Assembly: GCF_003473485.1 (NCBI RefSeq)
Contig: NC_053043.1
Coordinates: forward strand, 2,738,001 to 2,802,000
Source: Medicago truncatula
Lineage: Eukaryota > Streptophyta > Magnoliopsida > Fabales > Fabaceae
DNA length: 64,000 nt
Direction of reading: 5' to 3'
The translations under genes were made by a program, and so were the position numbers. The notes under the pieces are model-generated. The model saw only the letters and a program-made list of their open reading frames with translations, searched no databases and was not told where the DNA came from. How positions within the stretch are numbered: the stretch's first letter is position 1; each line of letters opens with the position of its first letter. Below are positions 3,218-62,500 of the stretch, one piece after another.

Positions 3218-3984
3218 TTCAAATTAACTCCAATGGTCTTTTTTTCTTAACGGCACAGGTTAATCAATCCCAAAATAGAAATATTTCATTAATATTTGTG
3301 CATTTAACTAAATAAAATATAAAAAATTAAATGCAATGCACGAATTCCAACAAAAAGTTTCTGCATTTAACTTATTAACTTGATCCTCAAAGGCACAAGT
3401 TAGCATTTCCCATATTTAAAACGTCAATGGTATTTAGTCTAAAATTTGTCTTTTAAAATCACTTTTAAATATTACTTTTTTAATTTATTGTGAATAAAAT
3501 TGTTGTTAAATATATAGAAGGATTAATTATGGTTCTACTCCTTCGTTCTATATTCACTTAATCACAAAATTGGTCCTCCCATTTTAAGATCATTCAGCTT
3601 TAATTCCTCTTTCAGGTTTTTAAACTTAGAAATATCGATCATATCATATTTGAATTAATGTTTTTAGAGAATTTTATGATAATTTTAATGTTGGTGATAA
3701 TTTTACGAACCAAGTTTCCTGCTGCAAAGTTTCTATGTTGTTTCACGCTTGTAACATATCGTGGTCGTTGATTTAAGATCGAACGATTCAGATTTTAAAT
3801 TCAGTTCATATGATAAAACAATCTCAAACATTCATTTAGATCAAACGGCGGGAAGACGCAGTTACAGTTACAGCTAGAAATCCAAACCGTAATTTTACAT
3901 GTCGTACCACACATCATTTAAAATATTTCGCATCACATTTCTGAGTACAAAAACCTTTCAAACATATTACCGGAGTTTACAAAT

Positions 3985-4320
3985 CATAGCTTTCATTAGG
4001 ACCACAAAAACCATAAACATCACAATTATATTTTGCTGAATAGCTTGTTTCTCAACTTGATACCTATTGATGCATGTAGTGACCACCAACTTGCCTTCAA
4101 AACTCACCACAATGGTTAAAAAAAAAAAATTATTGTTGTTTTGACAATTTTTATTGTTAAATAAGCTTCTTTGTAGTTGCTTAAGTTTTCACTTTAATTT
4201 GCCCCTGCATATTAATTTATCTATTTGTAGTGTAGTGTCTTTAAGCAAAACAAGATTTCCTTTATTTTGAAATTGAAGAGTGACAATAGAATTTGACGAT
4301 TCCAAGTTACTTGTGAGTTG
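3985..4320 (-). pseudogene. S-domain receptor kinase gene scraps
   Basis: Bases 3985-4130 match, with many substitutions, the EGF-like part of the receptor kinase gene at about 17240-17370 (the GFCG...C region and the following 'LIYTSWMN' stretch). Bases 4256-4320 resemble the lectin-domain part near 17970-18060. Both are antisense to the plus strand, like the intact gene. No reading frame survives. They lie in the decayed duplicate of the receptor kinase/NHL block. Confidence 0.6.
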
Positions 4321-6652: not shown

Positions 6653-6678
6653 AAAGGTCAAGTCAATAACCAGGTATC

Positions 6679-9600
6679 ATGGGTTCGAAGTGGGATATTG
6701 AAAAGTTCACCGGTAGTAACGACTTCGGGTTGTGGAAGGTGAAGATGATGGCAATTTTAATTCAACAAAAGTGTGTTGAAGCTTTGAAGGGAGAAGCACA
6801 GATGTCTGCACATCTGACACCTGCTGAGAAGACGGAGATGAATGATAAGGCGGTCAGCGCTATCATTCTGTGTCTTGGGGATAAGGTGTTGAAAGAAGTA
6901 TCAAGGGAGGCTACTGCTGTGTCTATGTGGAATAAGCTTGATTCATTATACATGACCAAGTCTTTGGCACATAGGCAATTTCTGAAACAACAACTCTACT
7001 TTTATCGTATGGTGGAGTCAAAACCTATAATGGAGCAACTGACGGAGTTCAATAAGATTATTGATGATTTGGCGAACATAGATGTTAATCTGGAAGACGA
7101 GGATAAAGCCTTACACCTACTGTGTGCTTTACCCAGGTCCTTTGAGAATTTCAAGGATACTATGCTTTATGGCAAAGAGGGCACTATCACTTTGGAGGAA
7201 GTTTAAGCAGCTTTGAGAACCAAAGAGTTAACCAAGTTCAAAGAGTTGAAGGTTGATGATAGTGGAGAAGGCTTGAATGTCTCAAGGGGGAGAAGTCAAA
7301 ACAGAGGAAAAGGGAAAGGCAAGAATTCCAGGTCAAAGTCTAGGTCGAAGGGTGATGGCAATAAAACACAGTACAAATGTTTTATTTGTCATAATCCAGG
7401 TCACTTCAAGAAGGATTGTCCGGAGAGAAAGGACAATGGAGGTGGAAATTCATCCGTTCAGATTGCAAGCAAAGATGAAGGTTATGAGAGTGCTGGAGCA
7501 CTAACTGTGACAAGTTGGGAACCTGAAAAGAGCTGGGTCTTGGACTCTGGGTGCTCTTATCACATTTGTCCAAGAAAGGAGTACTTTGAAACGTTAGAGC
7601 TGAAAGAAGGTGGAGTAGTTCGCCTTGGTAATAATAAGGCTTGTAAAATTCAAGGTATGGGTACTATCCGACTCAAAATGTTTGATGATCGTGATTTCCT
7701 TTTGAAGAATGTGAGGTATATTCCTAAACTTAGGAGAAATTTAATATCCGTAAGCATGTTTGATGGTCTAGGCTATTGCACTAGAATTGAACGTGGTGTG
7801 ATGAGAATTTCTCATGGTGCATTGGTTATGGCTAAAGGGTCTAAAATACATGGTTTATATATTTTAGAAGGTTCTACCGTAATAGCAAATGCATCGGTTG
7901 CTAGTGTTGACACTCTGGACATAACTAAACTTTGGCATTTGAGGTTAGGTCATGTCAGTGAGAGAGGTTTGGTGGAGCTAGCTAAACAAGGTTTGCTAGG
8001 GAATGAAAAATTGAACAAGCTAGATTTCTGTGATAACTGCACATTAGGCAAACAACACAAGGTGAAGTTTGGAGTGGGGGTGCATAAATCTAGTAGGCCT
8101 TTTGAGTATGTTCATTCGGATCTTTGGGGTCCAGCATCGACGAAGACTCATGGGGGAGGTTCATATTTCATGTCTATCATTGATGATTATTCTAGAAGAG
8201 TATGGGTTTACATTCTGAAGAATAAAAGTGATGCCTTTGAAAAATTCAAAGAATGGAATATACTTATAGAAAATCAGATTGGTACCAAACTGAAAGTGTT
8301 GAGAACTGACAATGGCTTGGAGTTTGTTTCAGAACAGTTTAATGAGTTTTGCAGGAAGAAAGGTATAAAGAGGCATAGAACCGTGGCATACACACCTCAA
8401 CAGAATGATCTTGCTGAAAGAATGAACAGGACTCTGTTGGAGCGTGTGAGGTGTATGCTGTTGGAAGCAGGATTGTCCAAGATTTTCTGGGAAGAGGCTG
8501 TTAGTACTGCAGCATATTTGATTAACAGATGTCCATCAACAGGGATAGATCTCAAGACACCTATGGAGGTTTGGAGTGGGAGATCGGCAGACTACTCTAA
8601 CTTGAAAGTCTTCGGAGCTTTAGCGTTTGCCCATGTCAGGCAAGACAAACTTGATGCTAGAGCTGTGAAGTGTATTTTCATGGGTTATCCTGAAGGTGAG
8701 AAAGGTTATAGACTGTGGAAGATGGAACCTGGAGGATCAAAATTTATTATAAGCAGGGATGTTACTTTTGATGAGACCCGCATGGGGATGAAGTGCAAAG
8801 ACCTGGATGCAAGCTCGGAAACGGGGACAGAGAAACTTCAGTTTGAGGTGGAGCCTATCACTGATGAAAGGGAAGAGGATGATCAGACTCCAGTACCTGA
8901 TGAGGGTGAAGGCCAAGAGATAGTGAATCCTGACTATCAGCTAGCAAGAGATAGGGAGAGGAGACATATTAATCCATCTAAGAGATACGGTTATGCTGGC
9001 CTTATTTATTATGCTTTGAATGCGGCTGAAGAATTGCAAGACTCGGAACCAAAGAACTTCAGGGAAGCATTAGAAAGCAATGAAAATAAGGACTGGCTGA
9101 AGGCAATGAATGAGGAAATGCTTTCATTGGAGAAGAACCAGACTTGGAAACTTGTTTCATTTCCTGAGAATCAAAGGGTAGTGGGAAGCAAGTGGGTGTT
9201 TAAGAAGAAAGAAGGTATACCAGGGGTCGAAGCACCAAGGTATAAGGCAAGACTTGTAGCTAAGGGTTTTACTCAGGTGGAAGGGATTGATTACAATGAA
9301 ATCTTTTCACCGCTGGTAAAACATTGTTCTATAAGGGTACTTATGGCGATTGTTAACATGTATGATCTTGAGTTAGAACAAATGGATGTGAAGACCACAT
9401 TTCTACATGGAGAGTTGGAAGAAACTATCTATATGCAACAACCAGAAGGTTTTGTAGAAGACAATACAAAAGTGTGTTTGTAATAGAAATCTTTGTATGG
9501 GTTGAAGCAAAGTCCAAGGCAGTGGTATCGTCGGTATGATGAGTTCCTAGTAAAGGCTGGTTTTGTGAGAAGCAACTATGATAGTTGTGTTTACATGATG

Positions 9601-10611
9601 AGAAGGAATGAGAAAGTCATTCTCTACCTTCTCCTTTATGTAGATGATATTCTTATGGCAAGTTCTGACATGCAAGAGATTCAGAAGCTCAAGGAAAGAT
9701 TGAATGATGAATTTGAGATGAAGGATCTTGGTAATGCAAAGAAGATACTTGGTATGGATATCATAAGGGACCGGAACAAAGGTGAGTTATTCTTATCTCA
9801 GCAGGGGTACTTGAGGAAAGTGGTGGAGCGGTTCAGAATGAAAGATTCTAAAGTCGTTAGCACTCCTCTTGGTCACCACACTAAGCTATATATAAAGCAG
9901 TGTCCTCAATCCGATGAAGAGAAAAGCAAGATGGAGGGTACTCCCTATGCAAGTGGGGTTGGAAGCATCATGTATGGTATGGTTTGTAGTAGACCAGACT
10001 TATCCTACGCAATCAGTGTGATAAGTCGGTTTATGGCAAATCCGGATCAAGTGCACTGGCAAGCTTTGAAGTGGGTTCTGAGATATTTGAATGGATCTTT
10101 GAAAGGTGGCCTAAGGTATACAAGGTCATAACCAGGTAGGGATGCTTTGGAAGGATATGTGGATGCGGACTATGCAGGTAACGTAGACACTAGAAAATCT
10201 TTGTCAGGTTTTGTGTTTACATTGTTCTGTACAGCGGTAACTTGGAAGGCAAATCAACAATCAGTTGTAGCTCTTTCAACAACTCAAGCAGAGTACACAG
10301 CCCTTGTTGAAGGGGTCAAGGAAGCCATATGGTTGAAAGGTATGATTGGAGAAATGGGGATTAGTCAAGGATGTGTGAAGATACATTGTGATAGCCAAAG
10401 TGCCATTCATTTGGCAAACCATCAAGTGTATCATGAAAGGACAAAGCACATTGACATTCGTTTGCACTTCGTCAGAGACATGATTGAGACAAAGGAGATC
10501 ATGGTAGAGAAAGTGGCATCGGAAGACAATCCAGCAGACATGTTCACCAAATCATTACCAAGAGCAAAGTTCAAGCATTGCTTGGACTTGATAAACTTCA
10601 CTGAAGCATAG
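6679..10611 (+). pseudogene. copia gag-pol polyprotein frame with three nonsense sites
   Basis: One reading frame runs from the ATG at 6679 to the stop at 10609-10611 with no frameshift. It is broken only by TAA at 7204-7206, TAA-TAG at 9481-9486 and TAA at 10129-10131. In order: gag (W-x-W core, LYMTKS); a CCHC zinc knuckle CFICHNPGHFKKDC at 7378-7419; protease DSGCS at about 7542; integrase with an HHCC finger (HLRLGH...CDNC), then D (HSDLWGP), D (RTDNGLEF) and E (NDLAERMNRT); reverse transcriptase with YVDD at 9637-9648; and RNase H with DADYAG, STTQAEY and HCDSQSA, ending near KHIDIRLHF. Catalytic residues are intact apart from the stops. The first stop (GTT TAA GCA) could come from one C-to-T change. 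The pattern suggests recent death, or reliance on other copies for proteins. Confidence 0.9.
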
Positions 10612-13894: not shown

Positions 13895-14952
13895 GTACAA
13901 ATAGTGAAAAGAGATCAATGATATTAGTCAAGTTGAAATGGTTATTTTTATATATTTATTTGAAGATGGGGTTGTAGAATTTTATGTATGACTAACAGTT
14001 GAATCATGCTAAGAATTTTTGTGGAATAGTATTGACTTTGATATTGGAAGTATTCTTTTTTTTAGCATGAATGAGTTTTCAAATGATGAAACTTTTAGTT
14101 TAAAAATTGTTTGGGTAAAGACCGTCACTTACCCATACCCATTATTTTTACTTTGTTTGTCATGCTCCCATTGAATTCTTGTGACTCACCATTTCTTTGG
14201 TTTCATTTTTTGAATTCAAAGATTGCAAAAGATTAATCTCATGGAGTTTTCAGGTTTACCAAAAACATATATTCTTTGTGGTAGATCTCTGTCTTGACCA
14301 TTTTTTTGTGATTTACTTATGATGTAACTATTGAGATAATAATGAGATTAATAATGAGATATACTTTGTGATAATAAACTTGTATCTTTAAATGTCGTGA
14401 AAGCTTATGAGTCATTACCAAAATTTTAGTATTTTAGAAAGGTGTAAGTGTTATAGTTTATTAGGCTTGCCAGGCTAAATATATCATGAGTTAGTGTTAG
14501 CCTGTGCGCCGGTCATGACCTGAAATTGGGTCGTGACATATACTCTTGTGGTGTAATCAAAGTTTACATATTGGTGATTTGTAAATTGCAGCATCTTCTA
14601 CGCAATATTACAAGTGTTTTGGCTTCACAGATAGCAAAATCATCAATACAGCTATCCCTACAAGGACTCTTAGCACATAACCATTTGAAGATCAGGTCCA
14701 ATATTTGTACTCTGTCACTCACCTTATATACAAACAACCCTCTTTTCTTCCTCCTCTCGTCCGGCACAGAACTCATATTTTCAACATTTTTGCTAGATGT
14801 AGCATGCTTTCGGAAAAATGATGGATTATGCTCCATCAATTTTATGATGGACAAGATTTGTCCATGACAGCTGTACAACTTAATATTTTTACTATATAGA
14901 GGTATATATCATTAAATTCTTGAGAGTCATGCTTCATTCCATCATATGTATT

Positions 14953-17900
14953 CTAGCCTTGCAAGCTTGTGACAGTGACACTGTTATTCGAGTCGTTATT
15001 TTGTTGACCTGAGTCTGCTCTATGCTCAGTCTGACTTAGAAGGAATGCAGGTTGAGATGGATGAGGAAGTTTAACAATCTCACTATTAAGCATTGAAACA
15101 ACTGTGGCCATAGTAGGTCTCTCCTTTGCAATTTCTTGCACACAAAGAAGTCCAATGTGTATGCATCTCAAAATGTTACCCACATAATCAGCATTACATA
15201 TTTCTTGATCTATCAAAGCTACAACCTCATCTTCATTCCATAGTTTCCATGTCTTTAAAAAACCAAAAAAAAAAACAAGAAAAATTAAGACTTACATAAT
15301 ATTGAGCTGTAATATGAATCTATGGGCGAAAATTTAAAAAGACTTACATATCCTAAGAGAGTGAGTGCTTGATGATTATAGAAACTTGTATTTTTCCTAC
15401 CACTTATTATCTCCAAGAGCAAAACCCCAAAACTAAATACATCTGATTTCTCTGAAAACAGCCCTTCCATTGCATATTCCGGAGACATGTATCCACTGCA
15501 TTTAAATTTCATTATCAAATTAAATATATATTATGGCTCTTTAATTGCAATGTTATAAGGACGTGTATATAAAGATAAAACATGCTTACTATGTTCCCAC
15601 AATCCTTCTTGTATTTCCCTCGTTTTCGCTACCTCCGAAGATTCTAGCCATGCCAAAGTTGGATATTTTTGGATTCAGTTCTCCATCCAACAAAATATTA
15701 CTCGGCTTTAGGTCTCTATGTATTATTCTTAATCTCGAATCTCTATGAAGATAAAGCAGTCCGCGAGAGATTCCCTCAATTATGTATAAGCGTTTTTGCC
15801 AATCTAAAATCTTATTTTTTATTGGATCTGTAGAGACATCGGTAAGTAACTAAGTAATCATAACTAGCAAAATGCAACTTCTTTCCTTCAGTATTAAAAC
15901 CACTTCAGGAAAGAACAAGTTAAGATGTGCTAACCAAATAGATAGAAATCTAAACTGTTATTAGGCATGTACTCATAGACCAACATCTTTTCTTCGCCTT
16001 CGATGCAACAGCCTAGAAGTCTAACAAGATTGCGATGTTGAAGCTTGGAAATCACAATCACTTCATTCATAAATTCTTCTAACCCCTGTCCTGATGCCTT
16101 TGAAAGTCTTTTCACTGCTATTGCCAGTCCATCTTGTAATTCTCCCTGATATTTTTTTCAGAAATATGAGAACATATAATACAAAATATTAATCAAAGAT
16201 AAAAACTTCACATGACTTAGTTTACCTTGTACACTGAACCAAAACCACCCTGGCCAATCTTATTAGGTGAACAAAAATTATTTGTTGCACTTGAAATTTT
16301 CTGAAACTCAAATAAAGGAAGGTCCTCTATTTGTTGCAATTGTTTCACATTTCCAATAAGACTTGCATTTCGGTTTTCTGGATGGATTTGCCTTGTGCTC
16401 GACACCAACATCTTTTCTATTTTCCTTCTTGCTGATTTCAATTATAATCCCAAATACATAATCAAAAGAATAAATAAACAGAAACACAAACATTTTGAAG
16501 GATGTTTCTTTATTTCTTAAATTAGAAAAATAGCTTTACACATGTTACATTGTTACCTATTAGTTTAATTAATGATTATAAGTAAGCAAATAATTAAGAA
16601 AACGTGAAAATTCTAGAGATACCTGCATATTTAGAAGTCCATGACCATAAGAAATAGGCTGCAGTAGCAAAAATAATTGCTCCCACTACCCCCATTGATA
16701 TGATGATTTTTGTAACATTTTTTTTCCCATCTCTATCTGTAGCTGTTAACATAATTTAGATCACAATATTGTAATTTGACTAGAAATATATTTCTATAAT
16801 AATTAATAAATTCACTACACCCAAAAATAGCTATGAACTATGAATACTCACGGAGTTCTGAATACGCTTGGCGTATGTAAAGATCAATGCCTCCACTTGA
16901 AAACCTGACTATATCAATTAAATTACCACTCCAAGTTAAGCAACGAATTCCATTATCAAATGCATAAGCAGTGCAATTACAATTATTCAAGCACTGAGTT
17001 TTACATTCATCAACAAAAAGATATGATTGTTGTACAAAATCTGGTATTTTTGTCATCTCTAGCTTCACAAAACCATCTTCTTTGCCGCCTAATTCACTTC
17101 CATTGTATTTCACCCTCTCACACTGCAGTGATGTCCTTCTCACACACCCACTTATCCAATTTTGTCTATTCCATTCATCCACATTTCGCGGCTCAAAACC
17201 TGTCAAACATGTGCATATTGGTGAGTTTGTCGAATCACAGTTTCCATTAAGACCACAAAAACCATAAATATCACATTCATTTTGTTGAGCAACAGTTGTT
17301 CCAACTTGATGCTTATTCATCCATGAAGTGTAAATCAGCTTGCCTTCAGAATTCACCACAGCAGTTGCAAAAAAAGAACTATTTAGCAGTGTATACGTAG
17401 TCTCAACAAGACTTCCATTATCTTTCCTTGAAATGCTGAATCCATTCAGATATGCAGAAATGTACAACAAACGGCTTGGTAATCCAATAAACACTTGACC
17501 ATTAAATGGACCTGAGCGCCAGTAAGGTTTTGTTTGGTTCCATACAAAAATTTCAGGAGCATTGAGACGCTCCAGGCTAAAAGAGAATTCCCCAATAGCT
17601 GGATCAGAAGGAGTTTTCCATGAAGTGAGTTTTACTTTTTCCCCTGTTCTTTGGTTTGTGCTAATGCTCATATTTGGAAGGAATGCATCAGATGGATGTT
17701 TGAAACTCTCCCATATTATATTGCCTGTTATTAGAGATATAATTAGTTAATAGTTAATTAATTGTTTAACCGATTATTAAGTTTAACAACGAATTCTCTA
17801 TATAAACACGCATTTTCATTAAAACAATATGATTTCGATTTTACTTTCTACACGAATCTCTTATTAAAGACTTCCATATAAAGTTAACTAATATCAAAGT

Positions 17901-18371
17901 ATAAATTAACCAATAACTATTTATATCTCTAATACCTGTAGTGTCTTCCTGCAAGACGAGGTTTCCAGTAGTTTGAAGATGAGCTGTGACATTAAAATTT
18001 GATGCAAAGTTGGAGACATTTGAGGACCATATAACATGTTTTTGTCCATTCAGTACTACAAGGTTTGTGTTGTCATCAGACATGGTGATAACCCCAGAAG
18101 AATCTTGTAGTGGTTTTTCTCTATTGGCTACCCATATTATGTTGGATTGATTGAGATACCAGATTCCTACGTAGCGATTTGTTGTGTTCATGGGGCTGAA
18201 GAATCCAAGCTTGAATGCATCATCATTTGAGCTTATAGTTTCAGAATCTTTGATCAATTGAGAAGATGTAATTGTGTACATAGAAGCACTACCAATTTCG
18301 ATCATCATGTAAAGAGTTGAAAGGAAGAATAAAATATGTAACATGTTTACTTGCACAAGGAGTACCAACAT
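14953..18371 (-). CDS. G-type lectin S-receptor-like serine/threonine kinase, DFG changed to NFG
   Basis: Eight exons on the minus strand join in frame: 18371-17936, 17724-16852, 16736-16623, 16431-16226, 16145-15935, 15827-15590, 15495-15348 and 15252-14953. That is 2,526 nt, 841 residues. Every junction is GT-AG, and exon 6 has the family's usual 238 nt. Domains in order: signal peptide, B-lectin ([28 protein letters not shown]), S-locus glycoprotein ([11 protein letters not shown]), EGF/PAN cysteines, a membrane segment in exon 3, a kinase with GQGGFG, AVKRL and HRDLK, and a C-terminal tail. The Mg-binding Asp of DFG is Asn (ISNFGMA, codon 15658-15660), so catalysis is doubtful. The family's usually single first coding exon is split by a 211-bp intron made of a transposable element (17729-17934) plus its duplication. 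Relatives act at the plasma membrane in pathogen or self signalling; the role here is unknown. Confidence 0.85.
17724..17939 (-). mobile_element. 206-bp TIR element in the receptor-kinase exon, with 5-bp duplications that form splice sites
   Basis: CCTGT at 17724-17728 and again at 17935-17939 flanks the 206-bp element 17729-17934. Its ends are inverted repeats: TATTAGAGATATAATTAGTT on the left and TATTAGAGATATAAATAGTT read inward from the right, about 31 of 36 bases matching. On the coding strand the upstream duplication plus the first element base reads ACAG|GTATTAG (donor), and the downstream one reads AATAACAG|GC (acceptor). A CTAAT branch-like word lies about 20 nt before the acceptor. 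Splicing at these sites removes 17725-17935 (211 bp) and leaves T-T-G-N-I-I-W in frame. I did not recognise the superfamily. A 5-bp duplication is unusual for hAT (8) or Mutator (9). Confidence 0.8.
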
Positions 18372-18634
18372 GTTTAGATTAATTCACTATATATTTCATG
18401 GTCTGGTTATTATATGCACATAGGGAGGGGACTGTAGTTACCTATTTAGTTGAACTTTTCAAGTCAGAAGTTGGAATAACACCAGATAGATACATCATTT
18501 TTCCACACCTCTTTTTCTTTTTCTTACCGTGTTTTGAATTTAATTCCCAGTTCAGGTTTGACTAAAAATGCCTCTAAAAAAAGGTTTAACCAAAATAATA
18601 TAAAGAACTAAAATGATGTATAGTGTAGTATGTT

Positions 18635-18865
18635 GTTGTCTAATATTTTCTTGGAGGATAATGTCGAGACAAGTGGGACTGGAGTCTCAATCCAGGCAAA
18701 GAGTACTCCGTATGAGGAGCCTATCATTTGATGTCTTCTATGGTGAAAACTGGTAGGTCGGGATAGTATGACATGGTTTGTCATAAAGAAACATATCTGA
18801 AGATCTTTTTATTTGTTTGACGGTTATTTCTACGAAAGATAACCTGATTCATCGTGAAATCATTC
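18635..18865 (+). mobile_element. LINE fragment, second copy
   Basis: Bases here follow 2945-3170 closely: the 'aatattttcttggagga' stretch, 'gtgggactggagtctc', 'gaggagcctatcatttgatg' and the 'gattcatcgt' end. It is a short non-coding copy of the RT zinc-binding region, and part of the evidence that 2.9-5.9 kb and 18.6-21 kb are duplicates. Confidence 0.65.
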
Positions 18866-19089
18866 TCTAAACTTTATATCTTTGTTTGAGTGGTTGTGGT
18901 CAAGTTAAAAATACATATCATTTGCTTAATGTGGGTGCATTTTATGGTATCCTTTAGGCGTATATTGGACTGTGTCTTGGCATATATGTGGGATACAAGT
19001 CACCATTGAAGAAACTGACGTGTGGCAAAGACAATTGCGGTCAATTTGTATTGAATTTTCTCAAAATTTGAAGGCAAAAATCAACTTTA

Positions 19090-19835
19090 GGGCTGGTGAA
19101 TTTCTTAGCAGCTGATGAATATTCAAAGTATCATTCAAACGTATTCCCTCTGAAATATAAGTAAAAATATTTCAAACGTCAAATGGTATTTAGTCTAAAA
19201 CTTGTCTTTTAAAATCACTTTTAAATATTACTTTTTCAATTTACTGTGAATATAATTGTTGTTAAATATATGGAAGGATTAATTACAGTTTTGATCATTC
19301 CTTCTATTTTCATTTAGTCACAAAATTTGTCCTCCTATTTTAAAATCATTCATTTTTAATTCCTCTTTCAGATTTTTAAACTTAAAAATTTCGATATATC
19401 ATATTCGAATTAAAGTTTTTAGAGAGTTTTATGATAATATTAAGGTTCGTGATAATTTTACAGACTAGGTTTCCTGCTGTAAAGTTTCTGTGTTGTTTCA
19501 CCTGTGTAACATATCGTGACAAAGATTTTCCATTAAAATTTTGAAATTGAACAATGACATTAAAATTTGAGGATGCCAAATTACTTGAGAGTGAGACATT
19601 TGATGACCATATAACATGTTTCCTTGGATAATGTGTCCCACCACATGTTTGGATTCATTCACGACTTCACAATAGTACCATTTGACTTAACTTGTAGTTG
19701 GAAATTTTGAATAGATCCAACCACGTCATTTTTTCACAACTATGACAGAATTTAGATTAAATGCAGTTCTTATACTTTTTTAAATAAAAAATAAAAGAAT
19801 CGTCTCTCTTTCTGAAAGGAATAGCAAAAACAATA
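19090..19835. repeat. Duplicate-block intergenic DNA with lectin-exon scrap
   Basis: 19170-19525 matches 3417-3790 and 19705-19835 matches 4330-4470 at clearly recognisable identity. 19540-19680 resembles the lectin part of the receptor kinase exon (17970-18060, minus strand) and 4256-4320. No frame survives. The order of sub-blocks is not fully conserved between the two copies, so rearrangement followed duplication. Confidence 0.6.
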
Positions 19836-20660
19836 CTAGAACAGCATCTAATTAATTTTGTCCTTTTTCTTTTTCTCTACACTCTCTCAGTTTAAGTTTT
19901 TCCGAAGAAAAAAAAAATTTAATAAACATTTTTTTTTTACAAAATGTTCCTTGTTAATAGTAAAAAAAACTAATAAACAATTTCTTTTATAAAATTAGTC
20001 ATTTTTTTAAAAAGTTTTAGCCATTTTTAATACTTTTTCTTTGTCATGTTGAGAATGCTTGTAAAGGAAGCAAAGTATGTGTGTGTATAGTGAAAAAAAA
20101 TAAAAAAATTTAAATATTTAGAACATTGACTACACACATTTCAAAACATAATTATTATATATGATTCCCTAACTAGTGTCTTTTCCTTTTCTTTTCGTTT
20201 TTATACAATACTCCAACTAACAATCAATAAGAGTTGGATATTACTTTGAAAACCGTTCTTGTCAAGAACTTCAAATGGTGAAGAAGGCTCCTTCAAATGT
20301 TCGGCCTTGTAGGAGAGGGTGTATCGTCAAACACTCTACATGTTTGAGTTAATATGTGCTTGAGGTGGTGGCTAAGCTTAGAATGAAGCATGTCATGAAA
20401 AGTGTTGAAATAAGGCTTATACCCAAAATTTGTGACCCAAAATTATTCATTAGACAACTATCTTTGTGGACCATCGTAAACAAGTCATGATTTTCTCTAT
20501 TTGAGACGGTTCTGACTTGATTAGACCGTTCTGACTCCAAATTTGCTCTACACAACTCTGACTTGATTTTCTCTATTGCATAAATTATAATATAAATAAA
20601 AATAACTTTGAAAGATACAAAGGATTTTACAGATAATTATGCATACAAAACACCATTTGC
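19836..20660. other. Intergenic DNA; no gene recognised
   Basis: AT-rich with poly-A and poly-T runs (19905-20120). A small open frame at 20349-20555 (minus) has no domain. Nothing else stands out. Confidence 0.5.
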
Positions 20661-27300: not shown

Positions 27301-28830
27301 GCTAGTTTATAGTTTATAGCTTATAGCGGATAAGCTCATATGCTTAAACCTTGATTGATAAACATCATTTTACCACGAGTTTATAGCTTATTTCATGAGC
27401 TTATAACTTATAACTTATCATTTTTTCTTTCATTTTTACCCTTATTATTTTATCTAAAATTCACTTATACCCATTATAATTTATTATAATTTTAAAAAAA
27501 ATAACCTCTTACAGTTCCATAATAAACATGCATGCCTCGTTTTTCTTTTTTGACCGAATATGCACACCTTGTTGATATATATGATCTATTTGCCTTCCAC
27601 TTTTTTAATATAGTAGATTATACGTGTTTTTCTCTACCAAAAAAAAAAGAATATACGTGTTTTTTTTAATGATATTACACCTCCCTTGTTTTCAACTAAA
27701 TAAATTGTTTTGTCTATTCCCCTAAAAAAAAATTGTTTTGTCTGTTATCCCTTCTCTAGTTAACAATGCATATAATAATTCTTATTAAAAAAAATGTATT
27801 TAATATATTATTCAGTAATTTTTTTCAAGAATAATTACACTCACCTCCCTTGAGGTCTTCTTAAATAACACTAACATCCCCTCTAATTTTTAATTAAACA
27901 CTTACATCCATTAATTTTTATTTAAATTTACAAGCACCTCCCCTATCATGTAACACCGTTAGCTTCTTTCCCTTGAAGCGTGAAGTTTGATGTCTAAACA
28001 TAATAAATATTCAATATTTGGATGAAGCAAGTGATTTTAATTCACATCAACATAATAAAGTTGGATGAATTGCTTAATGTTGCTTTTGTAGAATTGGAGA
28101 AGGAAGTGAATTGATAGAAACTGAAATTCTAAGTTGAAAAACTAGATAAACCAAATTCAAGAGGATGAAGAATAAGTAAGTGCAGAAATCGATTGAAAAT
28201 ATGAACTCATTAGCAGCATATATTGTTGAAATCAATGCTGCATATGTAAAATCAAGAGAAATTTGTTAATTGGAAATCTTAGAAGAAGAAGAAGAAGAAG
28301 AGGGTGTGAATTGAAGGAAGGTGTGTGAATTGATTTCAATCGAAACGTTTCAACACTGTTTAATAAAGGATATATACAAAATAAAATTAGGTTATAGTGT
28401 GATGATTGAGGGAAACGTTATCAATCTCTAATAACATTCTTGTAGTGTTTTAATTATCAGTGAGTTAACCACCCCAGGTAGTGGTAGCAAAATTGGTAGC
28501 TAATCTCTAAAAAATTTGTCATATATCTAACGGAAAGCTAACCGTGTTACATGAGAAGGGAGGTTAGTGTTTAGTTTAAAATTAGAGGGGATGTTAGTGT
28601 TATTTAAGAAGACCTTAAGGGAGGTGAGTGTAATTTTTCCTAAATTTTATTATGAATCAAGAATATTCTTTGTCATTTTGCATTTATCAGCTAGTTAAAG
28701 CGTTAATTTTACCAAACACTTCAACTAGCTTATAAGCTATCAGTCATCGATCATAATTTATAAGTTATTAGTCATCAGTTATAAGCTATCAGTTAGCTTA
28801 TTAGTTATCCTCTATTTTTTCCAAATAATG
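27300..28830. mobile_element. 'ttatagctta' element A, split by a nested fold-back element
   Basis: The left part (27300-27480) matches the start of element B (28880-29130): TATAGCTTATAGCGGATA, 'cttatttcatgagcttataa' and 'ccatttttacccttatta'. The right part (28690-28820) matches the end of element B (29620-29760): 'accaaacacttcaactagct' and 'ttataagctatcag'. Between them sits the fold-back element at 27830-28645, so B shows the uninterrupted form. Confidence 0.6.
27830..28645. mobile_element. Fold-back element with about 135-bp inverted ends
   Basis: The left arm reads ATTACACTCACCTCCCTTGA, then 'aataacactaacatcccctc' up to 'tgtaacaccgttagctt'. The right arm is its inverse, from 'gctaaccgtgttacatgaga' to 'ggaggtgagtgtaat'. 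The core of about 540 bp is AT-rich without a protein. Long ends suggest a Mutator-like non-autonomous element. Confidence 0.7.
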
Positions 28831-47739: not shown

Positions 47740-48545
47740 ATTTAACTATCTTGTTCTTTTAGTAGCTCATTTTGCAGTCATACACTTTTAGTGAAAGTTT
47801 CTTACGAACATCATCATTTTTATGTTTTGACACACATCTCTCCAAATCAATTTCTCTCGTGATTTTGTTGTGGTTTGTATCCCTTTCTCACACGCAAATT
47901 AAGAACTAGTATGGCATATGGTCATTTTAAATTGGCTATGCGTAATCATATTAATTTGCATCTTAAAGAATCCACATTCCACATGAAAGCTTTGAAATGA
48001 AAATGAGAGTAAATGCTTCAAGCTTTGTAGCATGATCACATCTCTTGGTCAGTTCGAAGCACAATTCAAAAACAACATCAAAATTAAGATCATTGGATTA
48101 GGTGCAGTCGGGACAGGCGCAATCAAGATGCGGTCAACATCTCAGAACCGTGATTTTATTTTTTCAGATCATTGGTCATTTGGGGGTTTGTTTGTATTCG
48201 CTAAAAATTGTTTTATTTGTTCAAGTAATATGGCGAAACACTAGTGAGGAGAGGACCCTCTTTTTTTTGTCAACATTGGTCCATTGAGTCTTCCTCTTCC
48301 CTTATAATATGTTGATGATTGTTTTACATATGCCCCCTGCATTCCCATAAAATCCCCTTAAAATATCACTTAAGATAATAAGAGTTTATTAGTATTAGTT
48401 GGTTAGTTATATTATTAGTTAAAATTAGTTACTTAATAAGTTAGTATAGTCGAACCCTATAAATTAAATATGCTTCAAATAATATTCTTCTAAAAAAAAT
48501 GTTCAGATATGGATTGAACAACTGAGGAGCCCCCTCCAAGCAATT
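47740..48545. other. Intergenic DNA; no gene recognised
   Basis: Small frames at 48032-48287 have no domain. Nothing else stands out. Confidence 0.4.
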
Positions 48546-48901: not shown

Positions 48902-49022
48902 GAGACTTGGTTTATTTGATTTGGACACGGAAAAAAAAAAAAAAAAGTTTTTCACTATCTCCATCTTATTATTATTTTTCTATTACCAAACTAAGTGAAG
49001 TTTTAATCTTATTTTTAGTGAA

Positions 49023-49600
49023 ATGGATCTCAATAATAATCATTTCAACACCCAAAATTATTCTAATTATCCATTTAACTACGAAAATCCCAACAATTAT
49101 CCAAATCGAAATCAATTTTTCAACCAACGTCTTCAAAACATACCTAATTTTGATTTTACACCAAATTTCAACCAGCCATCCTCTGTTCCAAACTTTCATG
49201 CATATTATGGATCTATGATGAGATATCCATCTCAAACACCTCCGTTTAATGGTTATATGCCAATGGAGAATGAAAATTTTCCCAGTGTTGGTGCATCTCA
49301 ATATCCTGAATTTTCAACACAAATAACTCCTGGTGGCATGGCAGTTGCTAATGAAATCACTCCAAATCTAGAAGATTCAACTCCTAAGAGTAAGAAAAGT
49401 AAGGAACCTGCATGGAACACTCAACAAAATTTGGTGCTAATTAGTGCATGGATTAAATATGGAACAAGCAGTGTTGTCGGGAGAAACCAGAGAGAAGAAA
49501 CATATTGGGGTAAATTGCTGAGTATTGCTCATTCGATTCTCCCCGCGATCTAGTTGCATGCCGAAACCGTTTTAATTATATGAGCAAAGTAATAAATAAA
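49023..49600 (+). pseudogene. Harbinger ORF1, Myb/SANT-like DNA-binding protein, truncated
   Basis: The ATG at 49023 opens an Asn/Pro/Phe-rich N-terminus (MDLNNNHFNTQNYSN) followed by a Lys-rich patch and the start of the SANT-like domain: PAWNTQQNLVLISAWIKYGT, then GRNQREETYWGKLL. The frame stops at 49553, but a neighbouring frame carries on as SPRDLVACRNRFNYMSKVIN to about 49597, so a frameshift lies near 49530. The C-terminal part expected in full-length relatives is absent. In Harbinger transposons this protein binds the element and helps bring the transposase to it. Confidence 0.75.
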
Positions 49601-49601
49601 T

Positions 49602-50577
49602 AGATAAAGAAGGTATATCACCGTTAGCAAAATGTACCACAACAATGCGAATGTTAGCATATGGTGTGGCAGCAGATACGGTTGATGAATACATCAAAAT
49701 AGGAAGTAGTACAACATTGGAGTGCTCACTTAGATTATGCAAAGGAGACATACGATTGTATGAGCAAGTGTACTTGAGAGCACTAATCCAAGATGACCTG
49801 CAAATAATACTACATGTTAGTGAAATGCGGGGATTCCTAGGGATGATCAGGAGTATTGACTGCATGCACTGGAAGTGGAAAAATTGTCCTAAAGCATGGG
49901 AAGGTCAATTTACCAAGGGGGATAAGGGAACCACCACAGTTATTCTTGAAGCAGTTGCATCTCATGATTTATGGATCTGGCATGTCTTTCTTAGATGCCC
50001 GGGAACGTTGAACGATATAAACGTTCTAGACCGGCCACCAGTGTTTGATGATGTGGAACAGGGAAAGGCTCCAAGAGTGAATTACTTTGTGAATCAACGT
50101 CCCTATAATATGACATACTATCTAGCTGATGGTATCTACCATTCTTATCCAACTTTCGTCAAATCAATTAGACTTCCTCAAAGTGAACTCGATAAGTTAT
50201 TTACAAAACATCAGGAGGGATGTCGGAAGGACATCGAACATGCTTTTGGAGTGCTTCAAGCTCGATTTAAAATCATCTGTGAACCGGCTCGCTTGTGGGA
50301 CATAGCCGATTTGGGTATCATCATGAGGTCATGCATCATATTACAAAATATGATTGTTGAGGATGAACGAGATACATATGCTCAACGTTGGACCGATTTT
50401 GAGCAACCTAGGGGAATTGGATCTAGTACAATGCAACCATACTCGACCGAGGTGTTACCAGCTTTTGCAAATCATGTGCGTGCTAGATTTGAGTTGCGTG
50501 ATCCAGATGTTCATCACGAATTGCAAGTAGATCTAGTGAAACACATATGGACAAAGTTTGAAATGTATCGTGATTGA
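49602..50577 (+). CDS. Harbinger transposase (DDE_Tnp_4), N-terminally truncated
   Basis: From about 49610 the frame reads GISPLAKCTTTMRMLAYGVA and runs open to the stop at 50575-50577, with the first ATG at 49645. The DDE residues are visible: MIRSIDCMHWKWKNCP (first D), TYYLADGIYHSYPTF (second D) and CRKDIEHAFGVLQARF (E). WEGQFTKGDKGTTTVILEAV and NDINVLDRPPVF are family signatures. About 310-320 residues remain; the N-terminal 50-100 residues normal for plant PIF/Harbinger transposases are missing, removed by the deletion after ORF1. The catalytic core itself looks intact. Host-domesticated relatives (ALP1-like) exist, but the flanking ORF1 and inverted ends argue for a transposon. Confidence 0.8.
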
Positions 50578-59584: not shown

Positions 59585-62500
59585 ATGCCTCAGAGACATT
59601 CGAAGAACAACAACGATCTCGCGTTCTTCACATACGACGAGAAGCGTAAACTCGGTTATGGAACGCAGAAGGAGAGGTTGGGGAAAGATTCTATCAAACC
59701 CTTCGATGCTTGTTCTCTCTGTCTCAAATCGTTAATCGATCCTATGAGCTGCCAAAAAGGTCACCTTTTCTGCAAAGAGTGCATTCTCGAGTGTCTCTTG
59801 TCTCAGAAGAAAGACATTCAAAGGTACTCTCTTAATTTCAATGCTAATTATAATCAACGAAAGAGTTAAGATGAAGAGTTTTGAACTTGACACTGTTTAA
59901 TTGAAATTATGACATGGGTTGTTTAATTTGTTTCATAAATCTGTGTATTCTGTTTATAATTTATATTATAACTTGTTTTGTTGGGATTCAATTTTTTAAC
60001 TTGTTGGCTACTAGATGCAAAAGACTATTATTTGAAGATGAATCAATGTTTTGTTTGTTACTTAGGGCTTGTTTGGACATTCAATTTAATTAAGGGCCTG
60101 TTTGATTTGGCTTGTTTTTTAGCTTTATGTTAATTCATAAGTACACAGTACCCACTACTGGAAATTGTATCTTCATAAGCTGTTTATTCATAAAATACCT
60201 TGACAAGCTTATCAATAATGCATAAAAGCTTTATTTATTTGCATAAGCTGTTTTGCATAAGCTCAAAAATAAGCCAACCCAAACAGACCCCAAGTACTTA
60301 TAACAAAACTGCTTATGTATATAGTCAACATGTTTCAGATAAGCTATAAGTTGGAGAGATGATTGAAAAGCTGAAAAGTGAAAACAACTTATGGACATGT
60401 CATTTGTTGTTTCTGTAAGATCTCTTGAAGAGTCTGACAAGTACTTATACTAGTAGATAAGTTCAAATAAGCCAATCCAAACAGGCCCTTAGTATTCCTC
60501 CAATAGTTTCTCCACCCAGAAACATGAAATTCATTGATTTGAAATTTCGAAATGAGTCTGTGACAGTCTATCCGTTGGAGCTCCAATCTCAATAATTGGC
60601 ATGAGCAATACTTTGCTCTGACAAAACATAAAATGATGATGAATTGGAAAAGCTGGCAGCAGGCTTAGTATCTAGAACTAGAAGGAAAATAGAAAAATGA
60701 TAATATAAATACCCTTCTCTCGAACAGGGTCACAAGTACTTATGCTAGCAGATAAGTTCAAATAAGCGAATCCAAACAGACCTGTATTATCCACCCAATA
60801 GTTTCTCCATCTCGAAAGTCGAAACATCAGATTAATTAATTTGAAATCCTGAAATGAATCTTGGTTTGAGACAATCAATCTGTTGGAGCTCAAATCTCCA
60901 TTGTTTGCATGGTCAATACATTGTCACAAAACATAAACTCTATTGAATTAGAAAAGGTGTCCCTGACTTGTAAACTAGAAACTAGAACAACGAAAATAGA
61001 ATGACTGTTCATAGAAATAGAGCCTTCCTCAAACTCCGAAACCAGAACATGGAAACCATAAAAGGAAGATTCTCAAAGAGTGCTGGGCTGTTGGCTGATA
61101 CTCTCAAACTATTGTCCAAGAATATTTCTGGCTTGAATGAAGAAATTTCTACCTCTTGATTTCATTTTAATCTAGGATTGGCCATTTTAACACGTGGTGG
61201 CTTTGGGGGTGGCGGTGGATTGGTAACGGTACCTGATTGAGCCCACTTGCTAAAGAGTTGCTCTGCTAGTAATGTGACCACATCAACCGCATGTGGGTTA
61301 GCATCCAGTGGGAGCATGGTCAACCCACCTTTGATTTGGATTGGATCACTGCTGGTCCTCACTCTGAACTCATATCATATGTCACGCTTCACCTGTCTGC
61401 GATCCTTGACAAAGTTTGGCCACACTGTCTTTGCATTGGTCTCTTTTTAAGTTGAAGTATGATTCAGGATTCCAGGGCTCTAGACCATGTTTCCGGTAGA
61501 AGGGAACCTATACATCAACAAAGCTGGCAACTTTAGACATTTCCTCAAATGTTAAATAGAAGACAGTGCCCCACCATCATAAAAAAATAACATTAATGCT
61601 TTTCAAAGGGTTAATCAATAGCTAACATAAAAAGGTGATTCCTTCTTAGGGTCAGTGGTGGAGACAAATATATCTATGCATGGAATATTAGACTTTTCCT
61701 CAAATGTTAGAAGTCAGTGCCCCACCATCATCAAAAAACAACATTAATGCTTTTCAAAGGGTTAATCAATAGCTAACATAAAAAGGTGATTCCTTCTTAG
61801 GGTCAGTGGTGGAGACAGATATATCTATGCATGGAATATTAGACTTCCGAGTAGCCTTATATTGAGTTTGAGTTTCAAATTTTTCTTTTAAGAACATTAA
61901 AGTGGAATGGTTTAGTGCACATAATTTGGGAAACTGTTTGAACAATCAAGAAAAAGCAAACTATCTCACAAACTACAAAAATGCCGAATGCCCCATAGCC
62001 AAACTGCATCAGTATTTTGATGTATGGGAGATATGTTTTGCTTTCTCTTGTTTGTTGGACCAGTTGCGCCAACTGTGTCCAGTAAATTGTTCCACGATTC
62101 TTAATGTTCTTAAAGAGAAATTTGAAACTCCAACTGAATATAATGCTATTGGGAAGTCAAGCATAGATATATTTGTCTCCACTGCTGATCCTATGAAAGA
62201 ACCACCTCTTTACGCTGCAAACAGTATTTTGTCTATTTTAGCTACTAGTCACATTGGAAGGCGCTCATGCTATGTTTATGATGATGGAATTGAAGGAAAT
62301 TTAACAGAGATAGCCCAAAATCATAGATACAAAATTATGACATATTATAAAATATGTAAATGTGTACCTTGATCAGATGGTACACGTTTACATATTTGAT
62401 AATATGTCATAATTTTGTATCTATGATTTTGGGCTATCTCTGTTAAATTTCCATCAATTGGTATCAGAGAAGTCAGGAGCGGAGTAGAGGGGCACTTCTA

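Follow-up and report, generated by a model that had tools for sequence, protein, structure and literature searches.

A probable case of a MITE-like insertion turned, or ready to turn, into a spliceosomal intron in an S-domain receptor kinase gene of Medicago truncatula

Results

An S-domain receptor kinase gene with one extra predicted intron

The window is the whole stretch of Medicago truncatula DNA that was analysed, 64,000 nucleotides (64 kb) of contig NC_053043.1, and all positions refer to it. Published sources are cited from excerpts throughout. The minus strand of the window carries, from 18371 to 14953, a gene whose eight exons encode a predicted protein of 843 aa:

17936-18371, minus strand, exon 1a: N-terminal region and first part of the B-lectin domain
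17725-17935, minus strand, predicted extra intron: 211 nt, GT-AG, phase 1
16852-17724, minus strand, exon 1b: rest of the B-lectin domain, S-locus glycoprotein and PAN domains
16623-16742, 16226-16431, 15935-16145, 15590-15827, 15348-15495 and 14953-15252, minus strand, six remaining exons: transmembrane and kinase regions

The sequence-only reading had described an eight-exon frame open for 841 codons. The open frame and the eight exons stand, and the length is corrected to 843 codons if the Met at 18371 is the start, or 834 if it is the Met at 18344. The predicted protein matched B_lectin (2.4e-31; the B-lectin domain being residues 78-182), S_locus_glycop, PAN_2 and kinase domains above cut-off, and DUF3403 below its own cut-off. 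The spliced ectodomain matched two PDB sequences, Brassica SRK8 and SRK9, and both alignments span the junction of exons 1a and 1b, with a gap of 3 residues at the junction for SRK8 and two 1-residue gaps beside it for SRK9.

In the prototype of the family, the S-locus receptor kinase, there are seven exons, the first of which encodes the whole S-domain; S-domain genes taken together vary (excerpt of PMC7971086). The earlier claim that this exon is usually uninterrupted in the family is supported for the prototype, where it is a single exon. Since the other six introns of the gene fit the seven-exon prototype, the element described below constitutes an extra intron. Judged by its domains and exon plan, the host gene is an SD-1 S-domain (G-type lectin) receptor kinase gene with one additional predicted intron.

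The kinase motif encoded at 15590-15827 (minus strand) reads NFG, as against DFG in the two receptor kinases aligned, among the 54 PDB sequences listed. The DFG aspartate is catalytic. With NFG in place of DFG, kinase function may be on its way out in this gene. The other motifs look intact, and the product is possibly a pseudokinase or in early decay.

Anatomy of the element

The following features lie inside the receptor-kinase exon:

17724-17728, plus strand, CCTGT copy (ACAGG on the coding strand): acceptor ACAG and first base of the next exon
17729-17934, MITE-like element of 206 bp with terminal inverted repeats (TIRs), by direct read
17729-17767, plus strand, left terminal inverted repeat, 39 nt
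17896-17934, plus strand, right terminal inverted repeat, 39 nt
17935-17939, plus strand, CCTGT copy (ACAGG on the coding strand): exon-end ACAG and the G of the donor GT

Direct reading of 17724-17939 bore out the claimed 206-bp inverted-repeat element between 5-bp CCTGT duplications. The plus-strand order is ATATTG, CCTGT, the element TATTAGAGATATAA ... TTATATCTCTAATA, CCTGT and AGTG, so that the element lies flush between the two CCTGT copies and ends in TA...TA. Its arms are imperfect, 85% complementary over 39 nt with the outer 14 nt perfect, and surround a 128-nt centre. The element carries stops in all three coding-strand frames, and the 211-nt intron that holds it has 22% GC. Shortness, TIRs and a flanking target duplication are all present, and MITEs are defined as mostly <500 bp, with TIRs and a target duplication flanking them (PMC10741241). 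Folding of the element with some flank gave z = -2.3 for the DNA single strand (2/200 shuffles as good) and z = -3.5 for the coding-strand RNA (0/100 shuffles as good).

Splice sites and proposed origin of the intron

On the coding strand the borders read CTACAG/GTATTAGAGA ... CTCTAATAACAG/GCAATA (slashes mark exon-intron borders), with the acceptor side CTAATTATATCTCTAATAACAG/GCAATA; the donor is CAG/GTATTA and the acceptor AACAG/G. The 5-bp repeat allows six equivalent cuts, and GT-AG occurs in only one of them, 17935 to 17725. The intron so defined is the element plus one duplication copy with no leftover sequence. This rules out the view that a MITE landed within an older intron, since the repeat meets the splice sites with no sequence in between. 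The duplication had been said to supply both splice sites; it supplies the whole acceptor AG and the G of the donor, and the donor T is the first base of the element. Removal of 17725-17935 in silico restored the message as claimed, with no residue gained or lost and the frame open. The locus therefore shows two features of introners, an intron co-extensive with a TIR element flanked by target-site duplications (a TIR/TSD element) and a coding sequence left unchanged by its exact removal, here in silico. With the element retained, the reading departs from the lectin domain at about residue 146 and meets a stop at 176 aa.

We propose that a short non-autonomous MITE-like DNA transposon entered the extracellular exon of the S-domain receptor kinase gene at ACAGG. 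The duplication would have placed an AG at each border. A GT donor would then arise from the final G of the upstream copy together with the element's first T, and the downstream copy would form the acceptor, behind branch-like words present in the end of the element. The spliceosome, which is expected to remove an element as AU-rich as the native introns, would take out the element and one duplication copy, leaving the original message exactly as it was. Three steps in this account are ones that we infer from the sequence: that the source was transposition, that splicing takes place, and that the change was a gain. The claimed MITE-like insertion is supported by the flush inverted ends, tested below, and by the target duplication; as the origin of the element it is very likely. 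Given the insertion, splicing as drawn is quite likely, and the whole chain, from a MITE-like insertion to an actual or incipient spliceosomal intron, is probable.

Splicing signals and retention

Anatomy, frame, donor strength and composition are direct observations on the locus. Donor strength was taken as the energy of pairing to the 5' end of U1. The donor of the element intron reached -7.2 kcal/mol, tied second among the seven introns of the gene; those of the six others gave -7.7, -7.2, -6.8, -4.1, -4.5 and -5.4 kcal/mol, and only 3 of 123 exonic decoy GTs were as strong. Plant introns require AU-richness (Goodall and Filipowicz 1989; Luehrsen and Walbot 1994). The A+U fraction was 0.78 in the element intron compared with 0.65-0.79 in the six others, and the U fraction of the 3' tail was 0.42 compared with 0.38-0.85. 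The CTAAT branch-like word claimed to lie about 20 nt before the acceptor was found, its A being followed by 18 nt, together with TTAAC, with A followed by 22 and 29 nt. Branch-like A positions lie 18, 22, 29, 33 and 52 nt before the intron end, the motif being loose and also present in 5 of the 6 other introns. No other AG occurs in the last 71 nt ahead of the acceptor.

These signals bear on the foremost alternative, in which a recent MITE insertion breaks or weakens the gene, is spliced partly or not at all, and fits GT-AG by luck. Donor strength and AU content that match those of native introns, the AG-free zone of 71 nt and the intact downstream frame speak against it. On the other side stands the folding of the transcript, as the predicted hairpin buries the donor. 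The mean unpaired probability was the lowest of the seven introns both at the donor (0.29; others 0.34-0.55) and in the branch zone (0.18; others 0.33-0.44), and the highest value was found at the acceptor (0.65; others 0.16-0.59). Plant splicing is reported to be inhibited by hairpins that cover the 5' splice site (Liu 1995). Because the inverted ends pair over the donor, splicing may be partial, and on this model some retention of the element in transcripts is quite possible.

A lucky fit is also not negligible. For an element with TA...TA ends, 77 of the 2528 5-mers of the coding sequence (CDS) give exact GT-AG borders (3.0%), mostly NNAGG (34) and GGTNN (31), and 12 of 2528 do so with CA...TG ends. 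Any one exonic hit in this gene would thus have a 3% chance of an exact fit, and the fit alone is no proof of splicing. The NFG change in the kinase is likewise what a broken gene might show. A young insertion would moreover keep the frame: when substitutions alone were simulated over the 698 downstream codons (n = 400), 91% of the runs were stop-free at 0.1% divergence, 32% at 1% and 6% at 3%. All that follows from the intact downstream frame is that the insertion is spliced or else young. Weighing both sides, we consider an unspliced or partly spliced insertion with a fortuitous fit unlikely.

Inverted ends compared with chance

Inverted ends were scored as complementarity over 30-nt arms starting no more than 8 nt from the intron ends. 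The element intron gave a best flush match of 27/30 with an opening run of 14 nt. Markov-1 resamples of the same intron (n = 5000) reached at most 22/30 and a run of 10, and 0/5000 attained the observed values, which rules out an inverted repeat by chance. The six other introns of the gene reached at most 17/30 and a run of 5, so that 0/6 equalled the element intron.

The whole 64-kb window was scanned for pairs of inverted ends that sit flush against a direct repeat (20-nt arms of at least 80%, perfect outer 9 nt, direct repeat of at least 2 bp). The scan returned 63 candidates, 4 of them with a repeat of at least 5 bp; the three besides the element lie in two places and have AT-only words. 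Each of 20 Markov-1 resampled windows contained 0 candidates with a repeat of at least 5 bp. The scan also recorded strong inverted-repeat elements with identical 20-nt arms at 62302-62445 and 27865-28603.

The in-register direct repeat is 5 in the element intron and 0, 3, 3, 1, 0 and 0 in the other six. CAG/G at the exon end and at the acceptor is splice consensus, and repetition of ACAG/G is partly expected at any intron. The 5-bp repeat is hence not independent of the splice sites and is weaker evidence than it appears; the flush inverted ends, and not the duplication, carry the argument for insertion.

The same expectation lends something to the view that this is an ordinary older intron whose inverted and direct repeats are coincidental. 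A second point in its favour comes from one of two decayed copies that flank the intact gene in the window:

3932-4296, minus strand, decayed paralogue fragment of an S-domain receptor gene
19540-19662, minus strand, decayed paralogue fragment of an S-domain receptor gene, ending 36 nt before the insertion site

In the fragment 4296-3932, homology ends one base before the intron boundary and restarts about 340 nt into exon 1b, with a CTACA-CTACA tandem word at the break point. No match was found between its stretch 4110-4235 and either the element (394/1000 resamples scored as well) or the start of exon 1b (612/1000). The break one base before the boundary counts against the insertion, as an older intron there might cause the same. 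As witnesses of an empty site the two fragments are uninformative, the first having no bases just past the site and the second stopping short of it. An older intron nevertheless has to face inverted ends that none of the 5000 resamples equalled and, in the excerpt of PMC7971086, the unbroken first exon of the prototype, and we regard it as very improbable.

Copies, neighbouring elements and superfamily

No full-length copy of the element occurs in the 64-kb window beyond 17729-17934, and the matches found were short and partial, the best being 48403-48437 (35 nt, 80%, E 0.01). The 14-nt end word occurs three times in the window with up to 2 mismatches, two of these being the element's own ends (chance mean 2.1). 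The 21-nt end word had 0 matches in viral contigs and 0 in prokaryote contigs, Rfam gave 0 matches at gathering score over 14500-20500, and a 13-letter end word had no match in a search of the open-access literature.

Other mobile DNA is present in the window. A Ty1-copia-type retrotransposon at 6670-10611 (plus strand) has gag, integrase and reverse transcriptase domains in a frame broken by stops. A plant transposase open frame lies at 49600-50577 (plus strand; Plant_tran E 5.4e-103, DDE_Tnp_4), which we take to be of PIF/Harbinger type, with another open frame, 48999-49553, directly upstream of it. No evidence was found for this transposase gene as the source of the element.

CACTA elements make target duplications of 3 bp and Mutator elements of about 9 bp, and neither fits a 5-bp duplication. 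The 5-bp repeat and TA...TA ends of the element also disagree with hAT (typically 8 bp), Tc1/Mariner (TA), PIF/Harbinger (3 bp) and Ginger (4-6 bp with TG...CA ends; values partly from PMC10741241). The combination fits no superfamily that could be named.

This misfit with common plant superfamilies, and the lack of a second full-length copy in the window, would suit a hairpin intron formed without transposition, for example by inverted duplication or repair synthesis, but the imperfect arms around a 128-nt centre and the flush target repeat follow the layout usual for MITEs, and such a route is very improbable.

Discussion

Relation to known transposon-made introns

The probable origin of the intron in a MITE-like insertion has precedents. 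Introners are TIR/TSD elements that form whole introns in algae and other eukaryotes (Gozashti et al. 2022, PMC9860276), in line with the algal precedent invoked by the sequence-only reading. In some introner families the splice sites come wholly or partly from the target duplication; most families leave mRNA length unchanged, and their GC is generally below that of exons (PMC9860276). The Medicago truncatula element resembles them in being a TIR/TSD element that makes up a whole predicted intron with splice sites partly from the duplication. The 2022 survey kept only families with at least 4 similar introns; of the 835 genomes of animals and land plants that it covered, only two groups, both of animals, had introners according to the excerpt, and land plants had none (PMC9860276). 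In contrast, one copy of the present element is known. By analogy the element would work like an introner, and it is not classed as one, since a family of copies defines the class.

Giroux and colleagues reportedly described in 1994 a de novo intron made by maize Ds in a mutant allele, with the 8-bp duplication of hAT. That case shares with ours a plant DNA transposon in an exon that is removed as an intron (here by prediction). It differs in its mutant allele and 8-bp duplication; the present element is short, lies in a natural gene and has a 5-bp repeat. The Ds intron is cited in PMC3443670, PMC2586383 and PMC4256211. In the AGGT-insertion model of intron gain, a duplicated AG-G word yields both splice sites and the message is unchanged (PMC3443670); unlike the model, the target here is ACAGGC without T, and the first base of the element supplies the T.

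A 2012 review lists intron gains by transposon insertion in Oryza, Drosophila, Oikopleura and Zea (PMC3443670). According to the excerpt of PMC4256211, no intron gain fixed in a species had been linked to transposon structure, a statement that does not sit quite easily with the Oryza entry in the review. Among the matches listed from the open-access literature, none described an S-domain kinase intron made by a MITE, which is a weak negative. Judged from these excerpts, similar transposon-made introns are known, and natural land-plant cases seem very rare.

Implications

A bolder extension would be an introner-type family in a flowering plant, in which a TA...TA MITE with 5-bp duplications turns any exonic NNAGG or GGTNN site into an intron and the receptor kinase is one of several gains; this we hold to be improbable. 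The ends of an element suggest a rule all the same: TA...TA in place of CA...TG lifts the exact GT-AG sites from 12 to 77 of 2528 in this coding sequence, and a TA...TA family would make accidental introns several times oftener than a CA...TG family. The origin of new introns is an old question, and a natural plant intron that still has transposon ends at its splice sites, as this one probably does, makes that question directly testable.
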